Source: Utricularia gibba (taxonomy: Eukaryota > Streptophyta > Magnoliopsida > Lamiales > Lentibulariaceae). From it: DNA of 64,000 nt. Of the stretch, positions 22,853-59,889 are shown in pieces. A model generated the notes under the pieces. That model saw only the letters and a list, made by a program, of their open reading frames with translations. It searched no databases and had not been told where the DNA came from. The stretch is taken from positions 310,001-374,000 of the forward strand of contig NEEC01000021.1 in assembly GCA_002189035.1 (NCBI GenBank). The letters are read 5' to 3'. Position numbers and translations under genes: made by a program. Each line of letters begins with the position of its first letter. The first letter of the stretch is position 1.

Positions 22853-23776
22853 ATGTCCTTTATAAGTAGGAGAAAATTTTTAAAAGATGGTTTGGATCAT
22901 GGTGTCGTCTTCTTCATTTTCCATGGTTCTGCTACTCTTACCAAATCTTCCTCCTAAAATTATTTTTCACGTTTTTCAATGGAGAGATATTTTCTGTTTT
23001 CTCATTATTTTCAAAATCATTTTATTCTTTTCCTTGTAATTTGATTGTACTTTTTTTAGTTTTTTGTCCATATTCTCTATAATTTCATTGTGCTCTTTTC
23101 AATTTCTAGGGAATTGAATTGGTCGACAATTGTTGCATTGGTTCAACAAACAATTACAATTGAGGTTGGGACTAAATTTATATTTCGTCCCAATTAAAAA
23201 TAAAATACATGATTGCAGTACTAGTCGCAAAATATTAGACATTTTACTACTTCTAAATATTTAAAGTAAATAATTTATATATTTGCAATATATATTTAAA
23301 AGTTTCAGTTTCATATAAAATAAATTTATTTTTTCTGAATGAATAAGATAAATATTTATATTACTTATAAAATATAAATATATAATTTTTAAAATGAGAA
23401 TTAATACATGCTGTAGATAAATTAGTTAATTTATATATTTTTTGAATTGAGTTTTTTTTAATAATATAGATATGTGAGTTAGGTATATCACAAATAATTT
23501 TGTACATTTTCCCAGTGAAATGAATGTGACATTAAGTAGATTTTAGCTAATGTGACATTAATAATGTGAAAAGAAGAGTAGGGAAACATTGATTCCGACT
23601 GCGCCATAGGAAGTGAACGCCACGCGGCTTAAATGCTCCCATGTGCCAGAAAAATAAAATTAAAATTATTTTCTTGAGGAAAAGCGGGGAACAGAAGTGA
23701 GATGATGCTCTTTAATGATCAAACTCCCTGGTAGTCGGCATCGACTGCGATTGCTGTTGATTCTGTCGCATTTGGA
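22853..23776. other. AT-rich DNA and promoter region of the IRX15-like gene
   Basis: 22853-23150 is pyrimidine-rich and looks like further LTR-derived sequence. 23150-23560 is very AT-rich. The GC content rises from 23590 toward the gene. No TATA box was convincing. Confidence 0.35.
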
Positions 23777-26523: not shown

Positions 26524-27224
26524 CGAGTTTTTTACTTTTCTACCCATTGTTTCTTATTCACATTTGTAAAATACCCATTATGTGTTGTTGTGTAAGAAAA
26601 ATACCTCCTTCCAAAAATTAATTTTTATTTTATTCAATTTGTATTAATAAATAGCGTGTATATTCATTTTATCTATATGAATGTTGATACTGATTTTAAT
26701 CTTGTTTTCTATTTATTTTATTATATAAATTTGATAAATGATGTAAAAAACATTAATTTATATTAACTATATGATAATTAAATATAAAACATATATCGTT
26801 ACTCACTAATATAACTTTTTATTAAAATAATTCTTCTTTAAAAAATCTATTAATCAAATAATCCAATTTTGGAATTGTGATTAAACTAGTTTTTTGTTTA
26901 TTATATGATTTTTTTGTATAATAAAAAACATTTATTATATTAATGAATAATGATATATGTTTTACATTTAATTATTATATATTTAGTAAAATTAATATTT
27001 TTCACAACATTTATCAAATTTACATAATAAAGTAAATAAAAACAAAATTAAAATTCATATCAGTATCCATATAGATAAATTGATTTATATGCTTTTTATT
27101 TAATACAAATAGAATAAAATAAAAATTAACTTCTGGAAGATGAATAATTTTATCATATAGCAACATACAAAGGGTAATTTACAAATGAAGGTGAAACACA
27201 ATGGATAGAAAAGTAAAAAAATTC
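26524..27224. repeat. Long foldback inverted repeat (MITE-like), about 310-bp arms
   Basis: The left arm (about 26524-26830) and right arm (about 26925-27224) are inverted copies. Reverse-complementing the right arm gives, in the same order as the left arm, ttttttacttttct, cattgt, catttgtaaa, tccaaaaatt/tccagaagtt, tttttattttatt, aatttgtatta, ttttatctatat, aaatttgataaatg and ttaaatataaaacatatatc-like text. Identity is roughly 75-80 percent by eye. The unpaired centre is about 95 bp. No transposase is present. It is most likely a foldback or MITE-type DNA transposon. Transcribed, it would form a long hairpin. Confidence 0.75.
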
Positions 27225-29402: not shown

Positions 29403-32364
29403 ATGTCTGGGATCCAGGAATTGAGTTTGAATCCTCCTGATTCCTTGGATTCCCGGGAAGTTAAGTCTACAGATTTGCAAATGTCAGCTGCCTCACACCC
29501 TTCTCTTGATAAAGCTCCTGATTCATTGGATACTCCAGAACTTAGTTCCGCAGATATTAAAGCGTCAGCTTCTTCTGAACCGTCCCTTAATAAACCTGAA
29601 ACAGATACAACTTCAAAATTCTCTGCTTCTAGCATCTCCAACTGGGCAAAGAATCTCAAGTTGCCTCATCCTTTTGTGGGGTCCCAGGAAGAATCACCAT
29701 CTGGGAACTCAATCAAGTCACCTCTTTCACGTTTTACTGGTGGGTTCGGGCTGCGCTTGTCTCCCAAATCTTCTTCTCAATCAGAAGAGGCTTCTTCAGG
29801 TCCATTGTCCCCCACACAACCTGGTTTATTGGGAACCATAACAAAAGGATTGGTGGACTCATCTAAGAATGCAGTAAAGGCTGTTCAAATTAAGGCTCGT
29901 CATGCTGTTTCACAAAACAAGAGGAGATATCAGGTATCTTGTTTTCTTTTTCTTCTATTTGCTTTAGGCGTGTCATTGTATCATACTATGGTCGTGAAGT
30001 ATTTCTTTGTGCTCTTCCTCTTAGTCTGAGTGCTGTTATTTGTTATAGGAAGGAGGGTTTGATTTAGATATGACTTACATCACTGAAAATATTATTGCCA
30101 TGGGCTTTCCTTCTGGTGACATGAGCTCTGGGCTGTTGGGCTATGTTGAGGTATTGTCATTAGCATTCTCAATATAAATGTCGCACATCTGAAGAAATTT
30201 TTTTATCTTAATCACGATGTTGCATCAGGGACTTTATCGGACCCACATGGAAGAAGTTATTAGATTTTTTGAAACGTATCACAAGGTAATGAAGTCTCTT
30301 TAGCTCGAAATGTTTTGCATTTCTCATTTTCCATAAGCGAACTTTTTTTTAATGCAAATCATGTAGGGGAGGTACAAAGTTTACAATCTCTGTTCTGAAC
30401 GCTTGTATGATGCATCTTTATTCGAGGGGAAGGTACTAATCTTTTTCTCTATTTTATTTGTGGGGTAAATATGCTGTGATTATCATTTGAGATTCTTCAG
30501 GCAATCCTTATGTACAGGTGGCTTGTTTCCCTTTCGATGACCACAACTGCCCTCCTATTCAGCTCATTATTTCATTCTGCAAAAGTGCATATGCATGGTT
30601 GAAGGAAGATATTGAAAATGTTGTAGTTGTACATTGTAAAGCTGGTATGGCAAGGACAGGGTTGATGATTTCCAGTCTGCTTCTGTATCTCAAGGTACAA
30701 TAATCATAGCGCTTCTGCCGTTGGTACCCCCTTTTTCTCCTATTAAAACAAGATATGTATTTTTTATGAGTTCTTCTCCCTTTTTTTATCATTATTTTTG
30801 TTCACCATTTTCTCTTTTCCTAGTTCTTCCCAACTGCAGAGGAATCAATAGATTTTTACAATCAGAGACGTTGCATTGATGGAAAGGGACTTGTTCTTCC
30901 TAGTCAGATTGTGAGTCTGATCCCTTAATGTATTTGATATCTTAAACATTTACATAATCATATGATGTTTAATCACAGAGATATGTGAAGTACTTTGAAC
31001 GCATTTTGGCATATTTTAATGGTGAAAACCAGCCTGGTCGGAGGTATTGATTATGTTAAGATTTCTGTTATTTGATGTCAACTAAGTGGAGTTAGGAAGT
31101 TGCTTTTCAAATGGTACAACTAGCCGTAGATTCTAAAACGTGAGGGTGGTATGGGAATGAATGTCTCGCTATCAGGTGCTGTTTCATGTTTAAATTTTAT
31201 AACGCAGGGTTCTCCTTAGAGGCTTTCGTCTGCATAAATGCCCATACTGGATAAGGCCCTCTATAACTGTCTCAGACCACAATGGTCTCTCCTCCCATGT
31301 GCCTCTGTGTTTAGTTCCATTTCTTTTTGCACAAAACCTCACTTTGAAAAACGTTTGTTCAGGCGTTCTCTTCTCAACTAAAAAGCATCCCAGGACTAAG
31401 GATTTGTCGGTGCGTCTTCCTCACACACACTTATTTTTCATACTGTAAATCCTAGTATGCTAGAAGGCTTTTCAGGACTAGTTGCTCGTGAGATTTCCAA
31501 TATCCATTATCTGGCTTTGATTATCAGTTCCTCTGCAGCCTGATGATTTTTGGTTTGCTGCACCAAAAAAAGGAATCATGGTACTTGCGCTTCCTGGGGA
31601 GCCCGGCCTCTCTGAGTTGGCTGGTGATTTCAAAGTCCATTTTCATGATCGCCAAGGGGACTTCTATTGGTATGGCAGTTTACATTTTTGCATGATTGTG
31701 GAGCGCAGTCGTTGTTTATGTTTTTCATATTCTTCCTAGCTGGTTAAACACAACTATGATCGAGAACCGAACAGTGTTGACCACCAACGACCTTGATGGG
31801 TTCGACAAGGTAAAAACTTTAGATCCAACGATCGGACCTTCTGTGATGGGGCTTCTCTGAATAATCACTGGTTTCTCTGCAGAGAAAATTGCCATCTCCT
31901 GGCTTCCAAGTCGAAGTTGTCCTCGTAGATTATGATCCTTCTGCTGTTGCAGCAAGACCTACGGCTGGAACTGCTACTTCGTTAGCTGATGCTAATACAA
32001 CAGTATCGCCTCCAGGTCCTAGTCCTCCTGATGAGAGCAATCCTGCTGCTACCAACGAAGGGAGTTCTGAAAAAGAAAAGGAAGCAGAGGATGCTTCGAC
32101 GAAGATCACACAAACAGGCATTTCCCCAAGGTTACTGGATCAGCGGAGGCAGAAGTTGAAGTGCCTCAAAACAAGAACACAATCACAAGTCCAGCCACTG
32201 GCCACATCTCTTCACATGCTTCAACCGTTCCAAAGGAGGCTCCAGATGGAGCTTCGGAACCCACAAAGCTCAATTCAGGTGGGGAGGCAAGCGAATTCAA
32301 AGCCGTGGCAGCAGACGCATCCATCTTCTCATTTGGAGACGATGAAGATTATGAAAGCGAATGA
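29403..32364 (+). CDS. PTEN2: PTEN2-type phosphatidylinositol/tyrosine phosphatase, 12 coding exons, one single-base frame loss near the C-terminus
   Basis: Plant PTEN2 proteins remove the 3-phosphate from phosphoinositides and bind phosphatidic acid. Coding exons: 29403-29933, 30049-30150, 30229-30285, 30367-30432, 30518-30694, 30824-30910, 30979-31043, 31208-31284, 31363-31409, 31539-31669, 31740-31809 and 31883-32364. All introns are GT-AG with consistent phases. The long N-terminal extension (residues 1-177, Ser/Pro-rich) is typical of PTEN2. The active-site loop is HCKAGMARTG with Cys at about 292, followed by a C2 domain (about 350-505). In the last exon the reading shifts at the CCCC run 32124-32127. 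The other frame then gives the conserved acidic end (FSFGDDEDYESE). With the missing base allowed for, the protein is about 630 residues, near the 611 of Arabidopsis PTEN2a. Confidence 0.92.
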
Positions 32365-32612
32365 ACCGCGAGGCTTTTCCTCAAACCATGTAAAAAATAT
32401 ATCCTTGTGCATATGTTGTTACTCTCCATCATGCGTGCAGGATGTCAGCAGGATCACTGGTTTGCATTCCTTGCTCTAGTGTTGGAGCAGACTGCAAGAT
32501 GAAGTGGTCTCAAAGGCAACTTTGTATTCATTATATATTTGGAGCTGGAACAGTTGAACTACAGTTCAGGTTCTACTTCTACTCGGGCTATTTGTGTAAC
32601 ATGTTATGTTCA

Positions 32613-43857: not shown

Positions 43858-46598
43858 TGCTCACTCAAATTGTTTGCTTCCGTCGTGCATAGACATCGAT
43901 ATTCCACTGGAATTCGCAAATCTTCTAGGTATTCATTCGTTCTTTTCTTTTATAGGAAATTTTTTGGGGGTTTGTGAAGTTTTCATAGATTTTGATATGA
44001 TTTCATGATTTGCATATGTTGTTAGGGTTTCTTCTCCCTTTTCGCATCTTCACAATTCCAATACCGAACGGATCAAAAGTCTAGTGAATCGGATACCTCT
44101 TTTGTCCGATCTCGATACTCGATTCATGATGAGTACATCCTTACTCAGGCCAAAATAATGCCAAGATTCCTTGGGGGGTCGGTGACAAACCTCTTCCCTC
44201 TTTATGTACTTGATGGGTATGTCGGCCGCACTTATGGTCTAGCAGGTATATAACTAATGGATGTTCCAAATTCCTACAAGTTGGTTGATTTTTAGGTTCT
44301 GTTGAAACAACTGAGGCATAACATTGTTTGACTCGGGTTCTCATAGGCATGCACTTACGCTATTGGTTGTCAGATTTCATTTCTTTCTCCTAAATCGATT
44401 TCTTCTTGCAAGAGCTGATTTGATGCTCTCTTCTCCGACCGATTTGTGTAGCCTTCCTTCTCCATGTGGCATCTACTGATTTTCAACGTATCAGAGAGAA
44501 AACTATTAAGTCTCATTGATTACAATGCATGTTTATATATGTAACTTATTAACTAAAATTATAGTAATATACTATGAAATCTATATTATGATAATGTACT
44601 ATATATATTGCATACCATATACTTGAGAAAACATTATAGTAATATATTGTTTATACTACTTATAAACATGGTAAACCATATTTATGGTAATGCATATGAT
44701 AAGAAAAATCCGATAGCGTCACCACTCTTCTACAAAGATTTTGTTCTTAATATTTTAATGTATTTTGAGTAGATGATATGTGTTCTTTGGCATTTTGGTA
44801 TTTTGTTTTATCGCACTTTATCTAATGAATGATAACATCAACAAAAGTGTAGTTTTATTAATTGTGACTGAAAATTGCAATTTAACTAAATATTGTGACT
44901 CGTATTTTCTTATTTCTAAAACAATGTAGTCAAACTATATGATTTAAGGATATTATAGTGACTTCTCATCTAGTTACTAATTCAATCATATGATCAAATT
45001 TTATAATCAGTGAAATTATTGTGACTTAATATAATTCATTTTATACATTGTGATTCATGTTTGAAAACAAGACAATATTATGTTTATTTTTTAAATTAAC
45101 TCTATAAAATATTATAATTTTTTTAATATTTGTATAATATCACAATTTAGGATTTGTCATTCATAGGATACCATAAATTAATTGGGTTTTAAGTATCAAA
45201 CCATTCTATTTATTAATTTAAAATTTATATGTTAACAAAATAAAAAAATTGTATTTCATTTTTTTAAATAACTAACAAATGCTACTTATATTAATTACAC
45301 AATATCCATCCTTTTGAATGCTGCTTACGTTAGCATAATATCTATGCCTTTGAACTGTGATTACTTAGTAAGTAGAACTCATACTTTTAAATGTTGTTTC
45401 CTTAGTTAGCATGGTTTATTATTTACAAATAAAATAATAAAATAAATGCAACAAATATTAAAACATAAATAAATAAATAAATAATTTTTTATGTTTATAA
45501 TAAACTAACTGCATCCAAATTCATAAAAAAAAATTTAATAAATGAAAATAAAATTAAATACTAAATTTGAATATTCTACAAAATAAAATGCATAACATAT
45601 GGTATTTTACTTATTTACCCCTTAATATCCCGCATTTTCTCACCGGGCGCCCGTCGAGGGAGATAAAAATATATCAAATTGTTAAATATAAAAATATTGG
45701 GGATCAATGTTATTGTATTTACATAGTAGATACCAATTTTGATACTGTTGTAAAACATTGGGGATAGCATTAAAACAATAAGATTTTTTCTGTAATTTTT
45801 TGTAAATACTGATCATAAAGAGAACAATAATTTCGATTTCAAATCATTTTGTTTCCTATTGTAGCAACATCCATTTTATGATTACCATGTGTGTCCGTAC
45901 AGGTAAGACAATTCATTAATGAATCAATTAAATCTCTAATTACTAGAATTTTTACCTGATTTGGTTAGACATTCCAATTTAATGACATTTTGTTAGCTTC
46001 TAATTTTTTCATTTTTAATATTGTGTAACTATTTTTGGGTAAATATCAGAAAGTACCAAATTTATTTCTATGAATTATTAATTTATTATGTCATATGTAT
46101 TTATGATGTTTATTCTTATATAAGTTTTTTATTCTATTTCAAATAAAAAGTATTGATAAACAAAAAATTTACAATGTCGTTAAAATTAAGAATTCTTCTA
46201 TTAAATAAATTTATAAATCTAATTTATATTCAATAAAAAATATAAATACAGTGAATTAGTATCGAACACAACAAACTATATGCTTGTTTTATAAAATTTG
46301 ATATATGTTGTTTTTGTCATAGTTGTAAATTAAGTTTAAGCTAAGATTAAAGAAGATTTATGGTAAAATATAATAGAGAAACAAAAAAATAAATTCGACG
46401 ACGAATTAGAATAAAATAATGTACTAACTTGAAGGTTCAAGAAGTGATATAATCATTGCTACACTTAACCCATTCAACTTAATAATCATTTATCCAATAA
46501 ATGAAGAATTTAAGTCTATGTAAATCTTTTTTTTTTCTTAATCTTTTGTCTACTTTTATTTATTGAATGTAGGATTTTTGTCTACATTTGGGGTCTTG
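43858..46598. other. Intergenic DNA, mostly AT-rich
   Basis: 43858-44500 has moderate complexity, with 'gttagggtttcttctccc' near 44021 that looks like a gene leader, but no protein could be assigned. 44500-46600 is AT-rich with homopolymers and no recognisable element. An isolated GC-rich patch (caccgggcgcccgtcgaggg) lies at 45641-45660. Confidence 0.35.
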
Positions 46599-46652
46599 AA
46601 CAATGCAAATTAACAATATTTACACATATAGATATTGTTAATTTGCATTGTT
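46599..46652. repeat. Perfect 21-bp inverted repeat (hairpin, 12-base loop)
   Basis: The arms are 46599-46619 (aacaatgcaaattaacaatat) and its exact reverse complement at 46632-46652. All 21 pairs match, which is unusual even in AT-rich DNA. Origin unknown; it could be the centre of a small foldback element. Confidence 0.7.
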
Positions 46653-47170
46653 GACATATGTTGCATTGCTTAAGAAAAAGATTAAAATTAAAATTGGAAT
46701 TAAATTTAGATTTAATTTCAATTACGAATACAAGACACAAATAATGCTACTAATCATAAAAGTACAGAAATATACAATAAAATTCAAATTTTGTAATAGA
46801 ATACTAATTATTTCTGTATCCTGAAGCAATCAAAATGATGTATTATCTATTATTCACATATCAATAACTAATTTATGAAAAATAGTAGTAATAATAGTGA
46901 AGACAACGTGAATGGCTAAGAGAGTGAAAAGAAATAATTAGAAATGGATTATAAAATTACTGATAAGTAAGATTAATTCAATAATATGTTTAAAAAAATT
47001 ATATTTTATTACACATATAAATCTACAACTTTTACATTCAATATTAGACATTATGAAAAACATATGATATAATTTAATAATTAAATGAATAAATATATTA
47101 CATTTTTTTTAATTGAAAGAATGAAAACCCGAATAAATTGAAGAGAATCATATTTGGGGCTGGTAATGGT

Positions 47171-47179
47171 GCCAGGGGC
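47171..47179. repeat. Left 9-bp target duplication of the MULE
   Basis: The nine bases gccaggggc are repeated exactly at 52382-52390. Nine-base duplications are the hallmark of Mutator-like elements. Confidence 0.85.
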
Positions 47180-47786
47180 GGCTGAATTTGGGTTTAGGCA
47201 CCTGACACCTCTTTCTCTTTATCACAGAGCAATACTTCGGAAAGTATTTGGTGCAGGGCACCTGTTTTCATTTATATTTTTTTAATGTGTTTTAAAACAA
47301 ATAATTATTAACATTTTACATAATCAATATAAGTCTTATTTGTAAGGATTTATTACTATAACGTTTTTTAAGTAATTTATATATAAATTTAATGTCAAAG
47401 TTTTTAAATAACAATAAAAAAATGTAATAATTGAATAGCAACTTAGTTATTAAATAATAAATAGTAAAAAATAAGACTTAGTTACAAACCGTTTGGACAA
47501 ATCAAATAAACCATTTTTTATTACAATTAATAATGAAGTTTTTATATATTTAATGATTTTAGTGAAATAAAACAAATTTGATGGCAAAAATGAAAACGAT
47601 TCCCATGTTTAACGATTTGTATACATTTTTACAAAAAATAAACATAAACTTTCAATAAAAATATTCTTTACTTTGCTTGATATCATGAAAATACATTTCT
47701 TCTTTTCAAAGTTATTCTATATTTTGTCTATAAAATCCTTGCAGCCGTTCATTGATAAATCATTCATTATTTTAGTTGCTCAATTA

Positions 47787-50700
47787 ATGGCTCAAATTAC
47801 TTTTAAGTTGTTCTTTGGAGGTTCTTTTATCAATAATCTTCATACCGGGTACATGCATTATGATCGAAATCCGGTAAGCATTATTATTGTTCAGCCTAAT
47901 CTATCATATGAAGAATTGCTCAGGAGTATTTGTAGAGAATTGAATATAAATTAGGATTTATATTCAATTCGGATCATCACCAAATTCTTCGACGTAAATA
48001 CAAGTGATATTAGTTATGTTCCACTTACAAATACGGATTTGTTGCGCTGGATATTGATGTCACGTAACAGGGATTTGAGTATTGAACTTTATATTGATAC
48101 ATAAAGTTCGGGTTTTCCTTCTTCCTCTAATTGGCATGGTAATTATTTAATTATTTCAAATTTATTTTTTTACATATAATTTGTCAACATTTACAATTTC
48201 ACAATTTCAGGTGATGAATATAATTTGAATACTCCATATTTTGAGAATCAAAACACAAATAGAGATATCAACTATAATGACAACTTTGATCCATTTGATC
48301 CTAATTTTGGTTTTTCAACGGCTTATCAACAACCAACACAAGAAAATGGTTAGATTTGCATTTTTATAAGGTTAAAATATTTTTTCAGTATTTAATAAAT
48401 ATTCCATGTTTTTTTTATCAGCTTTTGAACATTATGATGAGGTTAACACTAATGAAGATGGCTTGACATATATACCAACTGATCATGATGACTCAAATGA
48501 AATGCATGCAGATAGTACTTCTGATATGGTAACAGATGTTGAAGAAGAGATTCCTGAATATGAATCACAAGAAGATGAACCATCCTCACAATCAGAAATG
48601 TGGCAAGATGCATCTATGCAAAGTGACTATTCAATGAATTACTATAATGAAGATTCAAAAGAGCTATCAATTGGCATGCATTTTAAAGACAAGCAAGCTT
48701 TGAAGGATGCTGTAAAATTATACAATATCAATGTCAAAAGGGAGTACATATTACGAAGAGGAAATAATTCACTTTATGCTATTAAATGTTTGCAACCAAA
48801 TTGTTCTTGGTCTTTGAATGTAGGGCCACAAAAACAAACAGGCACATGGAAGATTTCTTCATACAATGGGCCTCATACATGTGAGCTAAGAAACTCTTTG
48901 GCTAAAAAGCATGTTAACTTGACATCTGACTTCATTGCTTCTGGAATTATCCATCTTATATTGGATACAAATGCGAAGATAACAGTTAGAGCAATTCAAG
49001 CTTATATCAAAAGGGAGTATAAGTTTACAATTTCTTATTGGCAAGCATGGATGACTTTGACTAAGGCATATGAGTTACAATATGGTTCATGGGATGATTC
49101 ATGTGCTGACTTACCAAATTATCTTGAAGAGGTGAAACGGCAAAATCTGGTTACTATTGTGAATTTTGAGAATAATATAAATGCTGAAGGGAGACAACTC
49201 CTAAAATATGTTTTCTGGGCTTTTGGATTTGCTATAGAAGCTTTTAAATATTGCAGACCAGTGCTTTGTGTTGATGCAATACATCTCTACGGTGGTTATA
49301 AGTATGTATTATTGGCTGCAGTAGCTATTGATGCAAATAAGCATATATTGCCTGTGGCATATGGGTTTGTGCCTTCAGAATCAGGTTCATCTTGGAAATG
49401 GTTCTTAGATAATCTTGATATTCTTGTTGTTCGTGAACATCAAGTATCTTAGATAATCGAGGCTCAGGTTTAGTAGCTGCTTATGGGAAAATTCCGAAGT
49501 TTAGTCCTCCTCTTGGGAATCATAAATGGTGTCTTTATCATTTAAGGAGTAATTGCTTGAAATACAACAAAAAGAAGTCTACATCACGGATTAAGGATCT
49601 CATATGGTCTGCTGCTGTCACACGAACAGAAAAAGAATTCTTAGAAAGAATGCAAGCGGTTTATGATTCATGTCCCGGAGCATATAAATATATGATGGAT
49701 ATACCCGTTGAATTGTGGACATTAGTTTACGATAATGGAGACAGGTATGTAATTTTAATATATTTTAAAATTCTAAATTTATTTCTTAACATATTTATGT
49801 TTGTGAATTATGACGACAAATCATGTGGAGGCATTAAATGGTGTGCTCAAAGGAACTCGACGCCTTCCTCCTACTGCTATTGCAAAGGTTTTTTTTTTTA
49901 TTTCAACCATCATTATGAAATTAAATATAAATAACTAAATGATTATACAGGTCACATTTGAGAAACAGCTTTATTATTTTGAGAAAGGCAAAGAGAGAGC
50001 TACTAAATATCGTGCACAAGGAAAATATTTTGCGAAAAAAATTGAACAAGTTTACAAGCATCACGAGGAACAAGTTCAAAACCTTCTTTGCAAAAGATAT
50101 AATGATCGAAACATGGAGTGCAATGTTATTGAGATGGGAATTCATAATTCTACTACTTTTAGAGTAAACATACGAAATGGAACATATGACTATGGATTTT
50201 GGCAAATAGAATATCTTCCATGCCTTCATGCATAAAGAGTATGTTTTATATTAATCTATATTTTATTTTTTTATATCTAACACAATATTTTATTGTAGGC
50301 TTGTCATGAATTTAATATAAATCCAAGAACAAGGGCAAGTCAGTTTTATCAGACTCGTTTTATGGAGAAAGCTTATGCATCTGAGGTTCACCCTTGTCGA
50401 GATAAGTCATATTGGCCATCTGTCGGTTTTACACTTCATGTTGATCCTGAATATGAAAGTACAAGGATTGGTCGTAAGAAGACATCACGTTATCAGGGTG
50501 CTGTTGATTTTCAATATCGTAAAGGACGTCATTCTATTGGAGTACAAAAACCACGTAAAACAACTACAGAGACTCCTGCTGAACAAGAGCCTGTTCATCA
50601 TGGTTTAGAAGAGCGTTCATCACCTCAACGTCGTGACATGATATTGATGCCATCAAATCTTGAAGAAGGAAATCCAAGTACTTATAGACAATCAAGTTTT

Positions 50701-50898
50701 GATGGAGAAAATTCAAATTACTTTGGAGGAGAGCCTAATAATTATGGAGGACGAATTCCCGCGAGACATTCTATTTCACATCCACAAGAGTTCTCTCAAA
50801 CTTCAACTAGAACAAGGTCCAGCAATAAACCTACTTCAAAAGAAGATGTTTCTATATTGGATAGACTTTTCGGTGGATTTCGTAACTTCATAAAATGA
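47787..50898 (+). pseudogene. MURA-type MULE transposase, lightly broken
   Basis: The transposase begins MAQITFKLFFGGSF, a PB1-like N-terminal domain, and is read through four or five exons. It then has the MuDR DNA-binding domain (GMHFKDKQALKDAVKLYN to HTCELRNS) and the MULE catalytic core: VLCVDAIHLYGGYKYVLL (first Asp), LDNRGSGLVAAYG (second Asp), CLYHLRSN, and TTNHVEALNGVLKGTR (Glu). The SWIM finger reads YDYGFWQIEYLPCLHA: the first CxC pair is changed to Y.Y while the second Cys and His remain. Breaks: in-frame TAG at 47952, TAA near 48102, a frame change near 49440 and a TAA at 50232. The C-terminus ends in a DRLFGGFRNFIK tail. It is probably inactive, but only recently. Confidence 0.85.
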
Positions 50899-51608
50899 AA
50901 CATTTATCATATGTATTTTCATATTGTTGTATAAATTGTAATGTTTTAAATAAATGAAACATTGAAACAATATTAATGTATTATTTGGAATAAATACCAA
51001 ATATTTCATAATAAATTGAGCCATTAACCCCTTCATTAGAATAAAAAAAGGTTGTATTAAAGTTTCGATCAATTAATAACATGGTAATTGCCCCTGCCTG
51101 TACCGGAAGTGATAATTAAAGTGGGAATGCTGTCACTTGAGCGGATCAAACAAATAGGGGTGATCTATGTATAGTCTTTCTAGATCCATACATAGTCGGG
51201 CTGTTTCAAAAAAAAAAAAAAACGATTCAGTGGGTAGGCTACAGAACCATTTCATTGCATGGCCTTTTATTTTCATGTGTTCAATAAGAATTTGCACATA
51301 AAAGCCATAGTTAAGCTCTTAAAGGGACCTTGGGATATGACAACATAAAAGTCACAAAAACAAACTATTCATAGTTTGTTTTTTTTCTTAAAAACTTTTA
51401 TAGAAAAATATAAAACAATTTGAAAAGAAGATATGTATTATTTTTTATCTATCAAGTGTTGAATGTAAATAAATTTTGTATAACATTAATCATGATTTAT
51501 ATATATATATATATATCTAAGTCACATGAATTAAGCAATGTAATCATTTAAAAATAAAATAAATAAAACATATTTAATTTGATTGTTTGAATAACTGTTA
51601 GATTAAAA

Positions 51609-51810
51609 TGAGTATTATTATTTACCCTTTATTTTTGAATAAGGGTTATTCTTTATACTTTATTATTGAGTAAGTATTATTCTTTAATGTTTATTATTTA
51701 ATTGATGTTATTCTTTACCCTTTATTATTAAATAAGTATTATTCTTTACTGTTTATTTAAGTAAACCATTATATTTAATTGAATGAGCATTATTCTTTAC
51801 CGCTTATTGA
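51609..51810 (+). repeat. Degenerate tandem repeat in the MULE 3' region
   Basis: Units of about 31 bases sharing 'gtattattctttacccttta' start near 51610, 51639, 51671, 51703, 51733 and 51784. They are imperfect copies. A (ta)n run lies just upstream at 51499-51516. Subterminal repeats in Mu-like elements can be transposase binding arrays; that is inference here. Confidence 0.6.
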
Positions 51811-52381
51811 CACCTTTAGATTTATTTTATTTTTTTTAATTTAAAATGATTAAATAAGAATTTTAAATTAAAAATATAAATTTAATTTAATTTTAAAATT
51901 CCTTTGTACTCATGTTAAATTAAAACAAATCAAACTTTTGTTAAACAATATTTTTCATCATTTTTTTATTACTTGAATTAATATTGAATAATAACAATGA
52001 TTCAAAAGAATCTTTTTTTTCTAATTTCTTTTTTCTAATAATAATGATTCAAACTTTTGTACAAATTAGATATATTGTAATTTTTTTTTGAAATTAGATC
52101 TTCAAAACAATTTCTATTAATAATTTTTCCAATTTTTGAAAACTTAGACAACAAATTTATAATAAAATTTATTAAAAATGCTCACAAATAATACCTATTT
52201 TTGTATTTTTAGTTTTATAAAATTTGAATTATTCATAATACTTATAATAAATTATTAAAACTAAATTTCAGTATTAATATAATTTTGAGAAATGAAACAG
52301 GTGCCCTGCACCAAATAATTTCTAAAACAGTGTTGTATTACAAATAAAAAATGATGTAAGTGCTCTAACACAAATTTACTG

Positions 52382-52390
52382 GCCAGGGGC
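52382..52390. repeat. Right 9-bp target duplication of the MULE
   Basis: Exact copy of gccaggggc at 47171-47179. Confidence 0.85.
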
Positions 52391-52665
52391 TGAGGCTCCC
52401 ACACGCCAAATGCAGACGAAAACCCTACATTCAGTGTACGACACTCCAGGGGACAGCTCACAGAACGCTCGAAGTGGTCCGAGACCAGTGGCGTTAACGT
52501 AGTATGCTCCTCCGAATTCGGCAGTGTCCTGCATTTCTTCAATTCAAAGCCTTTGAATAAGCAATTCAGAGAGTTGCGGGATCCCAAGTTTGATAAAACG
52601 TAGGGTTCAACCCGGAGCCATTATCGGAGACCTGGAATTAGCGAAGCGCAGGGTGTGCCGATTAC
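52391..52665 (-). pseudogene. Truncated inverted copy of the NFD6-like gene
   Basis: On the minus strand this matches the plus-strand gene at 54935-55333 across the end of exon 1 (gtaatcggcac to cgctaattccag), the whole intron (including ttgggatcccg and actctc) and much of exon 2 (tcggaggagcatac, then cgagcgttctgtgagctg). The intron is retained, so it is a DNA-level duplication. The first exon is cut off at about 52665, 50 bases before the start codon of the dehydratase gene, and the block GQLGSHLTLNV of the parent is missing from exon 2. The MULE lies directly at its downstream end. Confidence 0.75.
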
Positions 52666-52713: not shown

Positions 52714-54273
52714 ATGGCGCTTTTCTCTCGACTCTGCACTCGGGTACGTGGCACCGCAACCGCTTTCTTGCATAATTTTCTTCCGTATTCATTTTTTAAG
52801 ATCTTCTGTGATCGTGTTTAGGTAGTTCCGCGGAGGATCAACTGGACACGCTATGGAAGAAGGTGATTCCTCTTAAACGTCCTCCCGCAGGCCGTAACTA
52901 CAGCACTTGTATATTTCTGATTTTTTCTGTAATTCTGTATTTTTAATGAAATACCCATAAGAACGGGATGAAAATGAGAATTCAGAATTTATTTGGGTCC
53001 GTGAAAATATGGATTTTTCAATATGTAGTATGCAGTTCAGTGGGAATGATTGTCTTCAAACGTTGTAGGGGATGTTATACATCTGGATTCAGATCATTTT
53101 TCCTCGCGGCTGATATCACTGATGCCCCCTCGCCCTGCTTAAGAAGTATCAATGGGCTTAGGATGTTTTGTGTGTCCCAAGGTTGGTGAGATGGGTATAG
53201 ACATGGTATTTAGTTTAGGTAGTAAATATGAAATTGTGGTATTGTTTATAGATCAAGCTCCTTGTCTGTGGACTTCATTAGAATTCCGTGATTTCAGTTG
53301 GGAAATTGAGTGATCTGCTTTTTCTTTATCCAGATTTATCCATGAAGAAGTGTGTAGGATGCAACTCCAAGGATATGAAGCCTATGACTGAAGATGCCGC
53401 CAGAATTCTAATTGAAAAGGCATGGATTGCGTCTCTTTTGTTAGTTTACATGTTTATCTGTATAAACAGCTACTCCCAACCCGTCAATATACATGATACA
53501 GGTCCCTGGATGGAGTTTGGTGAATGAGGAGGATATTCTGAAGCTGCAACGATCGTGGAAGGTTAAATCATTCATGAAGGGGCTTGAGTTTTTTAACTTG
53601 ATTGCTGGTGTTGCAGAAGCAGAAGGTAAATCATCAGTATCCTGACTCGATTGCATGTGTCCATTGCTGAAAATTCCAAAACCTTCTAAAACATTTTAAA
53701 TCTAATCTCTTACTTCTACTTTTGGAACAATTTTAAGTAAAACTATACTTTGAATTTTAGAACATGAACAATTAGACCTCCCACAAACACTACCTCCTCT
53801 TCCATGCATTTGCAACACACAACATCTATGATCTAACTGTGTTGGCTCTGCTGTATTTTGCTTTCATGAAATCTGTTATCTACTTAAAAAACTGGCGTAA
53901 AACAAGGCAACTGCTCTAGGAAATGAATATGTGCCGTGCCATTTATCCATGATTCAACTTCTGTATTAATCCGTAACTTGGATTAGCATCCATATAATGT
54001 AGTTTTGCTTACCCATCAGCATTCTCATTCTTTCCACAGGCCACCATCCAGATCTTCATCTTGTGGGATGGAACAACGTGAAGATTGATATATGGACTCA
54101 TGCTGTAGGTATGCACCGTCAAGTCATAATTTCACACCCTTTTTTCCCATTGCAGCTCACTTGATTCTTCACACATTTCAGTAGGACTAACGGAGAACGA
54201 TTACATACTCGCCGCCAAGATAAATGCGCTAGATCTCCACCATCTGCTTAGTACAAAGTCCGCCAGTAAGTAG
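52714..54273 (+). CDS. Pterin-4a-carbinolamine dehydratase, probably mitochondrial, seven exons
   Basis: The enzyme dehydrates 4a-hydroxytetrahydrobiopterin-type products; plant forms are linked to recycling of oxidised pterins and folate or molybdopterin metabolism in organelles. Exons: 52714-52743, 52822-52862, 53069-53181, 53334-53419, 53502-53625, 54040-54108 and 54182-54273, all in phase, giving 184 residues. Residues 1-60 are Arg/Ser-rich (MALFSRLCTRVVPRRINWTR), a mitochondrial targeting sequence. The catalytic core has GHHPDLHL with the His-His pair, then GWNNVKIDIWTHAV and LTENDYILAAKI. A CVGCNSKDMKPM segment precedes it, as in plant proteins. Intron 4 (53420-53501) uses GC instead of GT. 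No break is seen. Confidence 0.9.
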
Positions 54274-54831: not shown

Positions 54832-54934
54832 TTAGTGTTGTGGGCAGAGGCCCCTAATCTAGGGGAAACCGAGAGCATAAACCCAGAGGAAAACCCTGCG
54901 TTCTCCAAATCTAAAGAGCAAAATCTCTGCAACG

Positions 54935-55333
54935 ATGGCTTGGCGTGGTTCCTTTTCTAGATCATTCATTTCAGCTGCTAGGACCGGGGGATTCCGTTCA
55001 TCCTTTCCGCATTCGACGCCTAGTTTCCGGCGCCCGAATCCAATTCCTCGTCGTAATCGGCACAGCCTGCCCTTCGCTAATTCCAGGTTTCCGATATTGA
55101 ATCCAGCTTAAACACTACGTTATATCAAATTTGGGATCCCGTAACTCTCGGAGAATTGATTATTCTATACCTTTGAAATGATGCAACGCAGGACATTTTC
55201 GGAACTTGGAGGCGCATACTCAGTAATGCCAATGGCCGTCAGAGGGCAGTTGGGTTCTCACCTGACACTCAATGTGCGAGCGTTCTGTGAGCTGACCCAT
55301 GGTAGCTTTCGCCGTTCTTGTCAGGATCGCTAG
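54935..55333 (+). CDS. NUCLEAR FUSION DEFECTIVE 6-like small organellar protein
   Basis: Two exons, 54935-55086 and 55192-55333 (GT-AG, phase 2), give a 97-residue protein. The N-terminus MAWRGSFSRSFISAARTGGF is Arg/Ser-rich without acids, as in mitochondrial presequences. Exon 2 reads RTFSELGGAYSVMPMAVRGQ then LTLNVRAFCELTHGSFRR, which I match, from memory of the family, to the NFD6-like group (elements ELGxxxSxxPxxxxxxxxxLTxxLxxxxRAFxEL). Genes of this group often have alternative last exons, and more may exist in 55334-55990. A partial inverted copy lies at 52391-52665. The family match is moderate; the gene structure is well supported by the duplicate. Confidence 0.6.
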
Positions 55334-57081
55334 TATTTACTTTGTGAGTGACAGTTACTGCCGTTAGGATAGCACCATTTTTAGCTATATATATCTGCAA
55401 ATGAATATCGGGAATGAAATCCTACAGCCCTTGTTTCTTCCATATCTTGAGTGATTCAACTAAACTTGCTACGAAGAAATTCGCCGTAAAATGTGCAATT
55501 TCTATTGATTGATGCGCTGTAGGGTGGGAGTTATGTGGTTACATAAATCAATAGCTTTCAGATTTACACACCGTTTGGTTACATAAGAAACATTGATTCT
55601 TTTGCCGCCTGAGAGCATGATGTTTTATATGCTGAATGCGCCCTTTTACTGCACAACTTTCGCTTAGGCTTGCTATGATGATCCAATTTGGTAGCCTTTC
55701 CTTTTTGTATGTTCAATGAGATTAAGTGTGAATACTCAGTCTTTCGTATCTCAAATGTTTGCCTTGGCCTCTTGGGTTGCTTCTAGGGAATGTCTATGTT
55801 GATCTCCACAACTAGTGCACTCGCTACTTATTCCATGATGGAATGCACACATAGATATTCATATTCTGTTCATATTGTCACCCAGTATTCTCAACAGGCA
55901 TTTGATGTCACGTCGAACTTGGCATCTTGGCAGGTGCTTGAGCATATATCTTCGTTAGCTTATGTTACCGAGTCTCAGTGAAGAGGTATATGCTGTGGTC
56001 TTATTCCATTTAGGTGGACACAAGGTGAAAGGGCAAACCCAAGTGTGATCACCAGGTTGTTCCCTTACTCCCATTCCTTTAAGAAGTGAATGTTTCCTTG
56101 TTACATCTTGCAACCTGGCCATGCTCTCTTCCCATATCAAAACCACTGCTTGTTCCTTTAGTAGATTTTCAGTATACATACATGCAATTATTTGTTCTGG
56201 AAGAACAAAGAATCTCTATGCCTTCCAAATTCTTGTCAAATATTCTCCCAAGTCACAGCACCTGCATGTTTCACTAGTATCATGTCCAGAAACACAATAT
56301 ACTGAGTTCTTCATGCAGTGTGAACCTAAAAGTGCATCGTTGAACCTTACTGATGATAAGGGAGATGATAAAAGTAACAGCAGCCATGGTTGAACTCTTG
56401 GCACATCAAACAAGTGTTTGTGGGGCGGGAAGATGATAAGGCTTTGTAATCCTTTATCTTCTTTGCATAAAGCTTGATAAAAGTCGGTCCAGTCAAAAGT
56501 TGTGACTGCACCAGAGCCTCTCCCTCCAATACCCAAAAGAGCACAAAACCCATGGATGCACATGCGTCCCCTCTCCACTGCTTTTCTCCCTTCTTTCTCC
56601 TCACACACAGGCTTCTACCATAAACCAGATCAAAAGTGGAGCACATAGTTATTCTTTAGAACAGTCACCTTTATGCTTACCCATGTTTACTGTGCCCTGT
56701 GGCTCAGTTTTCATGGTTTATTCCGAAGCCGCCATTTCTAGCATTGACCGCATGTTGGGCTTGCAGTACCCATCGTTTTCATGGTTAGAAGAAGATGCTC
56801 TCAGAAAAGCAGATCTGGGAAAGCATCAGAAACATCACAAAAATGGAGGCAGTAAAGTTCCTTACATCTGATGAATGGCAAGCAGAGAGTGAAGGAAGAA
56901 AGGTACCCAGGGTGATGCAATGGAGGACCTACCATGATATGACTGACTATGATGTTCTTTAAGCCTGGAATCAGTTAAAGTTGATATCGTGGATCAGATA
57001 AGGGGAGGAGAATCTATCGTCCTGGAGAGGCAAATGAAGTAAGTAGCGAGCCTCTTTCACACTCCCAGAGAAGAGGAACAG
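55334..57081. other. Untranslated or alternative exons and spacer
   Basis: The composition stays near that of transcribed DNA. Several plausible splice acceptors (for example ttgcttctag at 55778-55787) could belong to alternative 3' exons of the NFD6-like gene. The 130-codon minus-strand frame (56216-56608) has no domain. The part from about 56650 is likely promoter and leader of the zinc-finger gene. I could not assign exons. Confidence 0.35.
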
Positions 57082-57573
57082 ATGGCTGGTGAAGAGAAGG
57101 CTGATCAGAAAACTACTCCACACAGTTCAGAAGAGTGGTTAAATCTGGGCCTGGGAAGGGAAAGGGAACCATCCCAGGAGTCATCAGGGAGACAATCAAG
57201 AATTACCTCAGCCAAGCTCTTCTCCTGCAACTTCTGCCCGAGGAAGTTCTGCAGCTCGCAAGCTCTGGGTGGACATCAAAACGCTCACAAACGAGAGAGG
57301 GGAGCTGTTAAGCAATACCAGACACAAAGGATGATGATGCACGCCTCCGGAACGAGATCACTAGGAGTGCAACCTCATTCACTTGTTCATAAGCCAGTTG
57401 TAAAGGATAGCAGGATTGCTGCAAGCCTACGAAGCACGAATATGGGAGTTGAATCCAGCAGGCTGGGAGAGGAGGCAGGTTCGATGTGGCCTGGAAGTTT
57501 CAGGATGGATACAAGAGAACAAGATGGAAACCCATGCAACTCAAATGCACTTGATCTAGACCTGAAACTATGA
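57082..57573 (+). CDS. C2H2 zinc-finger transcription factor with one QALGGH finger and EAR motif
   Basis: A 163-residue intronless protein of the C1-1i class (ZFP1/ZFP4/ZFP7 group). It has a single finger at about residues 48-70: FSCNFCPRKFCSSQALGGHQ then NAHKRER, with the two Cys, two His and the plant-specific QALGGH. The C-terminus LDLDLKL is a DLN/EAR-type repression motif, and the N-terminal LNLGLGR is a second LxLxL-like site. Members act as nuclear repressors in trichome, hormone or abscisic acid responses. The start MAGEEKADQK has no upstream in-frame methionine close by. No break is seen. Confidence 0.92.
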   Translation: MAGEEKADQKTTPHSSEEWLNLGLGREREPSQESSGRQSRITSAKLFSCNFCPRKFCSSQALGGHQNAHKRERGAVKQYQTQRMMMHASGTRSLGVQPHSLVHKPVVKDSRIAASLRSTNMGVESSRLGEEAGSMWPGSFRMDTREQDGNPCNSNALDLDLKL

Positions 57574-59889
57574 TCGGCTTATTGATGTGCTAAACTCCCA
57601 GTTAGGCATTGGAGTAGCTGCTTCTGTGCTTCCTTGAAACCTGCATTACAGCAATATTGCCATGTATCTATCATTAAATCTTCAACTCCAATGCGTCTGT
57701 AAATGCTTCTCAAATACATTCAAATAATCATCCACACCAGACAGACACTGTAGATCCAGGGCAGCCCACATGAGGCCAAGGCATGGCAAGGACCTGGATA
57801 ATGATTTCAACCTAACAGCCTAAGGGTGTTGTCAGTTTGATGAACTAGAAACCAGAAACCTAAAACAGTTGGTTACTGGGTTTTGTCGGTTGGTTCAGTT
57901 TGTAGGGGTTAACAGTAATACCCCTACTGGGGTTGCTAGCAGCCATTCAGCTCCATGCTAAATCGAGTTAATTATTGTTTTGCATGTCAGTGTTTTTTAT
58001 TGGGGAACTTTTGCTTTGCTTTGCAAATTATCCTACTTTTTTTACTTATGTTTGTAAAATGCATTATGTTTATAAATTTGTTTGCAAAATAAAGGCATTT
58101 CAATTTTAAAATCATATATAACATATTCAAAATTTTATAAAATACTTGTTATCATTTTTTAATTCATAATTTTCAAATGAACAAATGATAACCTTAATAC
58201 AAAAAAATTTAAAAATTTCCAGTTAATTTAAAATGATATTGAACATGTATGGAAAATAATTAATAAGTAAAAATTATAAAAAAAATTGAATAATTTTAAT
58301 AGTTGATATAAAATAAAAAATGTTATTAATTTCAATATGATACTTGATTTTAATTATTTTGAAAATCATTTTAAAATACAAAAAAATATTTTTATTACAA
58401 TTTTGAGTGTGACATTTATTATTAAAATAAATGAATAATAATATAAAAATTAATTATTAATTTTTTATTTCGTAAATAACATATATCATTTATCATATTA
58501 CATTTTTGTAAAATTTTTTAATTAGTTTACTTGTATAATTTTCTTTATATCATTATTAATAATAAATTTACTATTTAATATAATTTTTAAAAACATTATA
58601 CTTTAGATTCTTTTGTGTTTATGTAAATATAATTTTATTCAACATTCACATAAAAAAATAAGTATATACCAATTATGATGTTTTTTTATTTAAAAAATAA
58701 GAAGTCCGATATTTTGCAAATGAAAACTTAGATTACATGTAATTTTTCAATAAAAAAAACTTTCGGTATTTTGTAAATAAATGTAGTGTGACACACACAT
58801 TTACCAAATTTTGCCATGCGAAATCATATCTATCTATCGATCATTTTCCATTAAAAGTTAAATTACTTGGTCATGGTTACAGAAATGGCCACATCAGAAT
58901 TGTGTAGTGCTTCTTGCTTCCAATGGTAGAGTGCATCATGGGAATTGAGATTCAAGTTTACGCCACTGCTCAAATGCTTAAATACCAATGAAGTTTCTCT
59001 CCCAACTGAAAAGTAAAATGTAATCAAACGCCGTACATTAAACCAACACTCTATCGCAACCAATCATAATATACATTAGTTAATATCCAGATACGATTTC
59101 GATCAGGCTTGATAGATAGAGGTATCTCTATAACATATATTGTTCACATTGTTATTTGAAAGTCTTTCAATTATACCTGATTGAATTGTCATATTAATTG
59201 ATTTCTTTTTTTCAGATTCTTATTTATTTTTTCAATACCTTCTAAATATTTGATCTTGGAAGAAGAAGAACATAACTTAACCTATTGTTTTCCATTCCAT
59301 TTACATTTTGGTGCTTTTTGTCCTAAAGGTCGTTCTTCTTCTACTAAAATTGATGAAGTTTATGAATCCAATACGTATTCATTTGATGCACATGTAACTG
59401 TTGGATCATATGAAGTTAGCAATCCTCAATATCAATGATAAAATACATGATCTACGTTAGTTGCTACCTCAACCACCTCTTCAAAAATTATGGTATCATG
59501 AACAAATCCACTCACCCACTTACGGGTTTCTGTTATTTTTTTTCTACTGTCTTTAAGTTTTGTTCGTTTGTCTTAGTTTTTCTTATGCTTTTTGGTACAA
59601 GAATAGCTGCTAGTAATGTGTTGATATTCATCAATCAAAATTGTTTTTTTATCAAATCAATGCATCGTTCTTTTGATTTGTCTAACCCTCACTAACTATG
59701 TAACTAGTGTGAAAATTCTGATCCCATAACAACTAGTGCATACATTGGTAACCATCCTGCAATTCGATTATTTCATTAACACTCTCTTGTGATTCTTTAT
59801 CATTTATGCCATTTATCAATTTATGTGTTCATACATATTTAATATTAATAAAAACACCTAATAAAATATGATATAAATTTTTCATATCA
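57574..59889. other. Intergenic DNA, AT-rich from 58000
   Basis: 57574-58000 is the 3' flank of the zinc-finger gene. 58000-58800 is very AT-rich. 59200-59700 has weak open frames that may be decayed transposon sequence, given the Harbinger fragment next to it, but without motifs. Confidence 0.35.

Follow-up and report, generated by a model that had tools for sequence, protein, structure and literature searches.

A decayed MULE, a filler-sealed deletion and an inverted NFD6-like gene fragment in one compact intergenic region of a plant genome

The locus lies in a 64-kb window (C321:310001-374000, the whole stretch of DNA analysed) of an assembly comprising 100.09 Mb in 516 contigs, which was also the assembly searched. 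The right side of the locus is occupied by two genes. One encodes a pterin-4a-carbinolamine dehydratase in seven exons on the plus strand (52714-54273; PF01329, E 3.9e-26), is present in a single copy in the assembly and carries a GC-AG intron after its fourth exon (53419-53421). The other, also on the plus strand, is an NFD6-like gene with an intact frame of 97 aa, running from the ATG at 54935 to a stop codon ending at 55333, with an intron at 55087-55191. The protein has no match in Pfam or PDB and no solved relatives, and the name 'NFD6-like' is one that we presume from the features we associate with this family. A third, more distant NFD6-like gene was seen at L066 (G000:C2:276501-279000), 44-51% alike over two exons (E ~0.01-0.02). 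Window positions 30220-32515 and 54912-58997 are collinear with C1:2194501-2196728 and C1:2219118-2223943, forming a duplicated block in which one copy or the other has lost the intervening DNA or had it replaced; the C1 block contains an intact 97-aa paralogue of the NFD6-like gene (G000:C1:2219141-2219532), and has neither the dehydratase gene nor the gene fragment described below. The window also contains, at 26528-27220, a self-inverted (palindromic) stretch of 0.7 kb, 78% alike, and a smaller one at 23255-23440. Utricularia gibba is known for a genome of about 100 Mb shaped by several rounds of whole-genome duplication (PMC10663240, PMC8333044).

Upstream of the dehydratase gene sits a broken copy of a MULE, 5202 bp long and in plus orientation (47180-52381), delimited by its ends, by comparison with other genomic copies and by a target-site duplication. 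The 64-kb window contains the 9-bp sequence GCCAGGGGC at two places only, 47171-47179 and 52382-52390, which precisely bracket the element, as had been proposed. Searching the genome with both ends of the MULE recovered four other full-length copies (L041-L044) and two partial ones. The full-length relatives sit in different flanks, every one of them bordered by a perfect 9-bp duplication that is not shared with the others (GCGACATTT; GGCAGGGCT, which can also be read slightly shifted; GTGCTCTTG; TTTTTAAAC), and they begin directly after the left duplication; since they share this left end and have duplications of their own, no part of the element lies to the left of 47171. The ends of the window copy, GGCTGAATTTGGG...ACAAATTTACTG, match those of the four relatives and align with each other in inverted orientation over about 90 bp, with best-matching cores at 47185-47272 (plus strand) and 52289-52376 (minus strand), so that the inverted ends are indeed readable. 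A left end GGCTGAATTTGG is common to all full-length copies, and the right end reads ACAAATTTAGAG in four elements, one of them a partial copy, ACAAATTTACTG in the window and CAAATTTATCGT in the copy on C409. The final bases of this right end (52379-52381 in the window) are GAG in those four elements, CTG in the window copy and TCGT in C409, beside a constant left end, as if the right tip of the element were not fixed.

The internal sequence of the element contains a transposase DNA-binding domain (PF03108, DBD_Tnp_Mut; 48664-48849, plus strand, E 1.2e-6) and the first half of the catalytic domain (PF10551, MULE; 49261-49419, plus strand, E 1.6e-8), just 3' of which the frame is broken by a 4-bp deletion at 49444. 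Further along, in a zinc-finger (SWIM-like) region on the same strand (50185-50236), alignment with the four relatives shows the loss of two cysteine codons and a stop codon that ends the frame; among the copies aligned, only that of the window carries these lesions and the 4-bp deletion. A palindromic stretch is also found within the element, at 51825-51934. The original prediction considered this MULE to be nearly fresh, a description that does not fit its sequence. It differs by 3.3% from its nearest relative (C409) and by 5.4-5.6% from the other copies; it shows neither near identity to another copy nor, with its frameshift and stop codon, an open transposase frame, and with 90 private substitutions it has the most of the five full-length copies (36-74 in the others). 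Fifty of these 90 are C-to-T or G-to-A changes, the C-to-T rate reaching 10.8% at CG and 9.8% at CHG sites, about four times the 2.6% at CHH sites, a pattern that would be expected of decay in long-methylated DNA. That the 9-bp duplication is perfect says little about youth, as such duplications often outlast several per cent of divergence.

Between the MULE and the dehydratase gene lies a partial, inverted and frameshifted copy of the NFD6-like gene (52438-52665, minus strand), about 230 bp long, 2.4 kb from the intact gene and 49 bp short of the dehydratase start codon. It starts in the final 34 bp of exon 1 (52632-52665), continues through the intron (52529-52631) and stops within exon 2 (52438-52528). 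Local alignment pairs 52485-52665 with 55053-55235 in opposite orientation at 80% identity (E 2e-40), and gapped extension carries the match to about 52438 and 55312, with a score of 237 (maximum of 300 dinucleotide shuffles, 55). Both the reverse orientation and the retention of the intron (103 bp in the copy, 105 bp in the parent) agree with what had been proposed, and so does the parentage. In a search of the assembly with the fragment and with the right flank, the only other home to emerge was the neighbouring gene, to which the fragment is nearer than to any other genomic relative. Intron distances are 0.24 between parent and copy, 0.56 between parent and C1 paralogue and 0.63 between copy and paralogue; the first pair is the closest in 999 of 1000 bootstraps (0.999) and holds 40 exclusive matches, against 21 and 7 for the other pairs. 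Because parent and copy form the closest pair, the intron comparison shows the copy as derived from its neighbour after the split of the paralogues, namely after the whole-genome duplication.

The left flank of the MULE records a different kind of change. An old dispersed repeat, which matches 24 places in the genome if that of the window is counted and whose relatives are 69-84% alike, is present here in two parts, 46153-46562 and 46640-46850, separated by about 80 bp where the relatives have about 0.6 kb. The window copy has thus lost some 0.5 kb, the junction being sealed by a filler of about 80 bp (46563-46639). Part of this filler, 46564-46594, repeats in inverted orientation the stretch 52403-52433 (27 of 31 positions), a partner that lies beyond the MULE; beside it, 46599-46619 matches the reverse complement of 46632-46652 perfectly, forming a snap-back palindrome of 21 bp. 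A 27-bp core of the first motif, allowing three two-fold positions and up to three mismatches, occurs at only these two places in the 100-Mb assembly, and the 47 bp at the right flank of the MULE score 42 against the left flank, where the maximum of 200 shuffles is 29. Filler and template are now 5.8 kb apart and would have been about 0.6 kb apart before the MULE arrived, a mild hint that the element came later than the filler. The insert at the deletion junction has been copied from nearby DNA, probably by templated end joining of the type attributed to polymerase theta. We also considered the 31-bp pair as the ends of an older transposon that had hosted the MULE, and rejected this reading since the left member lies exactly in the deletion junction of the repeat, which resumes some 50-80 bp further on, and the genome contains the motif nowhere else.

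How do these neighbouring features relate to each other? According to the original prediction, the DNA that follows the right duplication forms the 3' side of the gene copy: the whole NFD6-like gene would have been duplicated in inverted orientation, truncated on its 5' side by, or next to, the dehydratase gene, and then invaded by the MULE on its 3' side. The copy and its parent are real and inverted with respect to each other, and the MULE is less diverged than the copy, all of which suits such a sequence of events, yet the junction itself argues against it. When the region 52391-52665 is aligned in reverse complement with the parent gene, only the portion from about 52438 onwards matches; the first 55 bp (52391-52445) score 18 against the downstream side of the parent (shuffle mean 21), the left flank scores 43 against the parent's 3' side (shuffle mean 40), and the empty site reconstructed by joining the two flanks of the MULE scores 35 (shuffle mean 33), with no continuation of the copy past the MULE. 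A stretch of about 50 bp with 80% identity should not have escaped the alignment, and the 3' side of the parent is well conserved in its C1 paralogue, so that true copy DNA should be recognizable there. Instead, the inverted partner of the left-flank filler, 52403-52433, occupies this interval. Recognizable copy DNA ends about 48-55 bp short of the right duplication, leaving a spacer of 47 bp (52391-52437) without homology to the parent by alignment against shuffles; as far as homology shows, the MULE appears to have landed about 50 bp from the gene copy and not inside it. Within the spacer, 52408-52432 resembles the upstream region of the parent on the plus strand (20 of 25 positions) and contains AAAACCCT, which we take to be a common plant promoter motif. 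At the other side of the fragment a cut by the dehydratase gene is not needed either, since both ends of the copy simply stop, and copying of a fragment that was already short on either side accounts for them equally well. We regard the nested scenario as very improbable.

The proximity of a gene fragment to a MULE end also brings to mind capture, by this MULE or a related Pack-MULE that subsequently dropped the fragment, given that MULEs are known to take up pieces of genes (PMC3310237, PMC8277862). The fragment, however, lies outside the target-site duplication and not within the ends of an element, and it is found in no copy of the MULE; its only other genomic match is the parent, and the distance of 2.4 kb fits a local copy. 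Capture followed by loss is accordingly hard to credit at all. A further scenario would have the gene fragment and the 31-bp filler of the left flank arise together, in a single complex repair during which the template was switched several times. Both stretches come from local DNA in inverted orientation, and the 31-bp partner starts about 5 bp from the end of the fragment; but the recipient sites would have been about 0.6 kb apart before the MULE, and the stretches are too short to be dated against each other. A single event thus seems unlikely.

The explanation that we prefer is that three ordinary and separate events have met in one compact intergenic region, to which we assign a probability of about 0.8. 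In this account, the NFD6-like gene gave rise, after the whole-genome duplication behind the C321 and C1 blocks, to an inverted fragment of about 230 bp, which spans the exon 1 tail, the intron and part of exon 2, came to lie 2.4 kb from its parent by the dehydratase start, and then decayed as a pseudogene. The old dispersed repeat lost about 0.5 kb and was sealed with inverted filler from local DNA, and the MULE inserted by ordinary transposition between the repeat and the gene fragment, generating the 9-bp duplication and decaying since. The gene fragment may itself be a larger product of similar repair. The order of events had been thought readable from the arrangement of parent, copy and MULE as inverted duplication, truncation and insertion, and this stands only in part. 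With the MULE lying outside the copy, nesting gives no order, and truncation is not needed; truncation of a once larger gene copy is possible, the junctions of the fragment having no ancestral sequence for comparison. The placing of the copy before the MULE is favoured by relative divergence only, which declines from 0.56 for the paralogue split to 0.24 for the gene copy and 0.03-0.06 for the MULE copies, and suggests the order whole-genome duplication, gene copy, MULE. If the site in the window was the donor of the other copies, the MULE here could predate its divergence, and hence the precedence of the copy is not strictly proven.

No function is needed for any part of the locus. One may imagine that the fragment has become part of the promoter or 5' untranslated region of the dehydratase gene. 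Its transcripts would then run antisense to the NFD6-like gene, or fold into a hairpin should they extend as far as the parent, and the expression of both genes would be linked; we consider this highly improbable. The locus shows the everyday decay of plant genomes in readable form, ordinary rather than new. Its value is that of a small and well-resolved record of how spacers form in a compact plant genome, by a gene fragment, a deletion with locally templated filler and a transposon; it would gain wider importance only if the fragment drives the dehydratase gene, or if inverted local copies prove common in the genome.

Compared with known systems, the MULE has what is typical of plant elements of the Mutator superfamily (PF10551, PF03108): a 9-bp duplication, terminal inverted repeats, DNA-binding and transposase domains, and several copies at unrelated sites. 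It differs in that its inverted repeats are just moderately alike over their 90 bp or so, the last three bases of the right end vary among copies and the window copy is broken. The NFD6-like copy resembles local inverted partial gene duplicates in being inverted, frameshifted, in possession of its intron and a few kb from its parent, whereas its small size, the lack of promoter and start codon and its position abutting the start of another gene set it apart. In Arabidopsis, polymerase-theta end joining seals deletions with inserts copied from nearby, also as reverse complement (PMC10923293, PMC5217109). The filler described here shares with such plant insertions the combination of a deletion and a short insert of nearby origin, in this case in reverse complement and accompanied by a snap-back of the break end; what distinguishes it is a 31-bp template lying about 0.6 kb away before the MULE, and an old event whose mechanism is deduced from its scar only. 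Finally, the assembly as a whole has the features of the Utricularia gibba genome in its size of 100.09 Mb, its plant genes and its duplicated blocks with gene loss between them.
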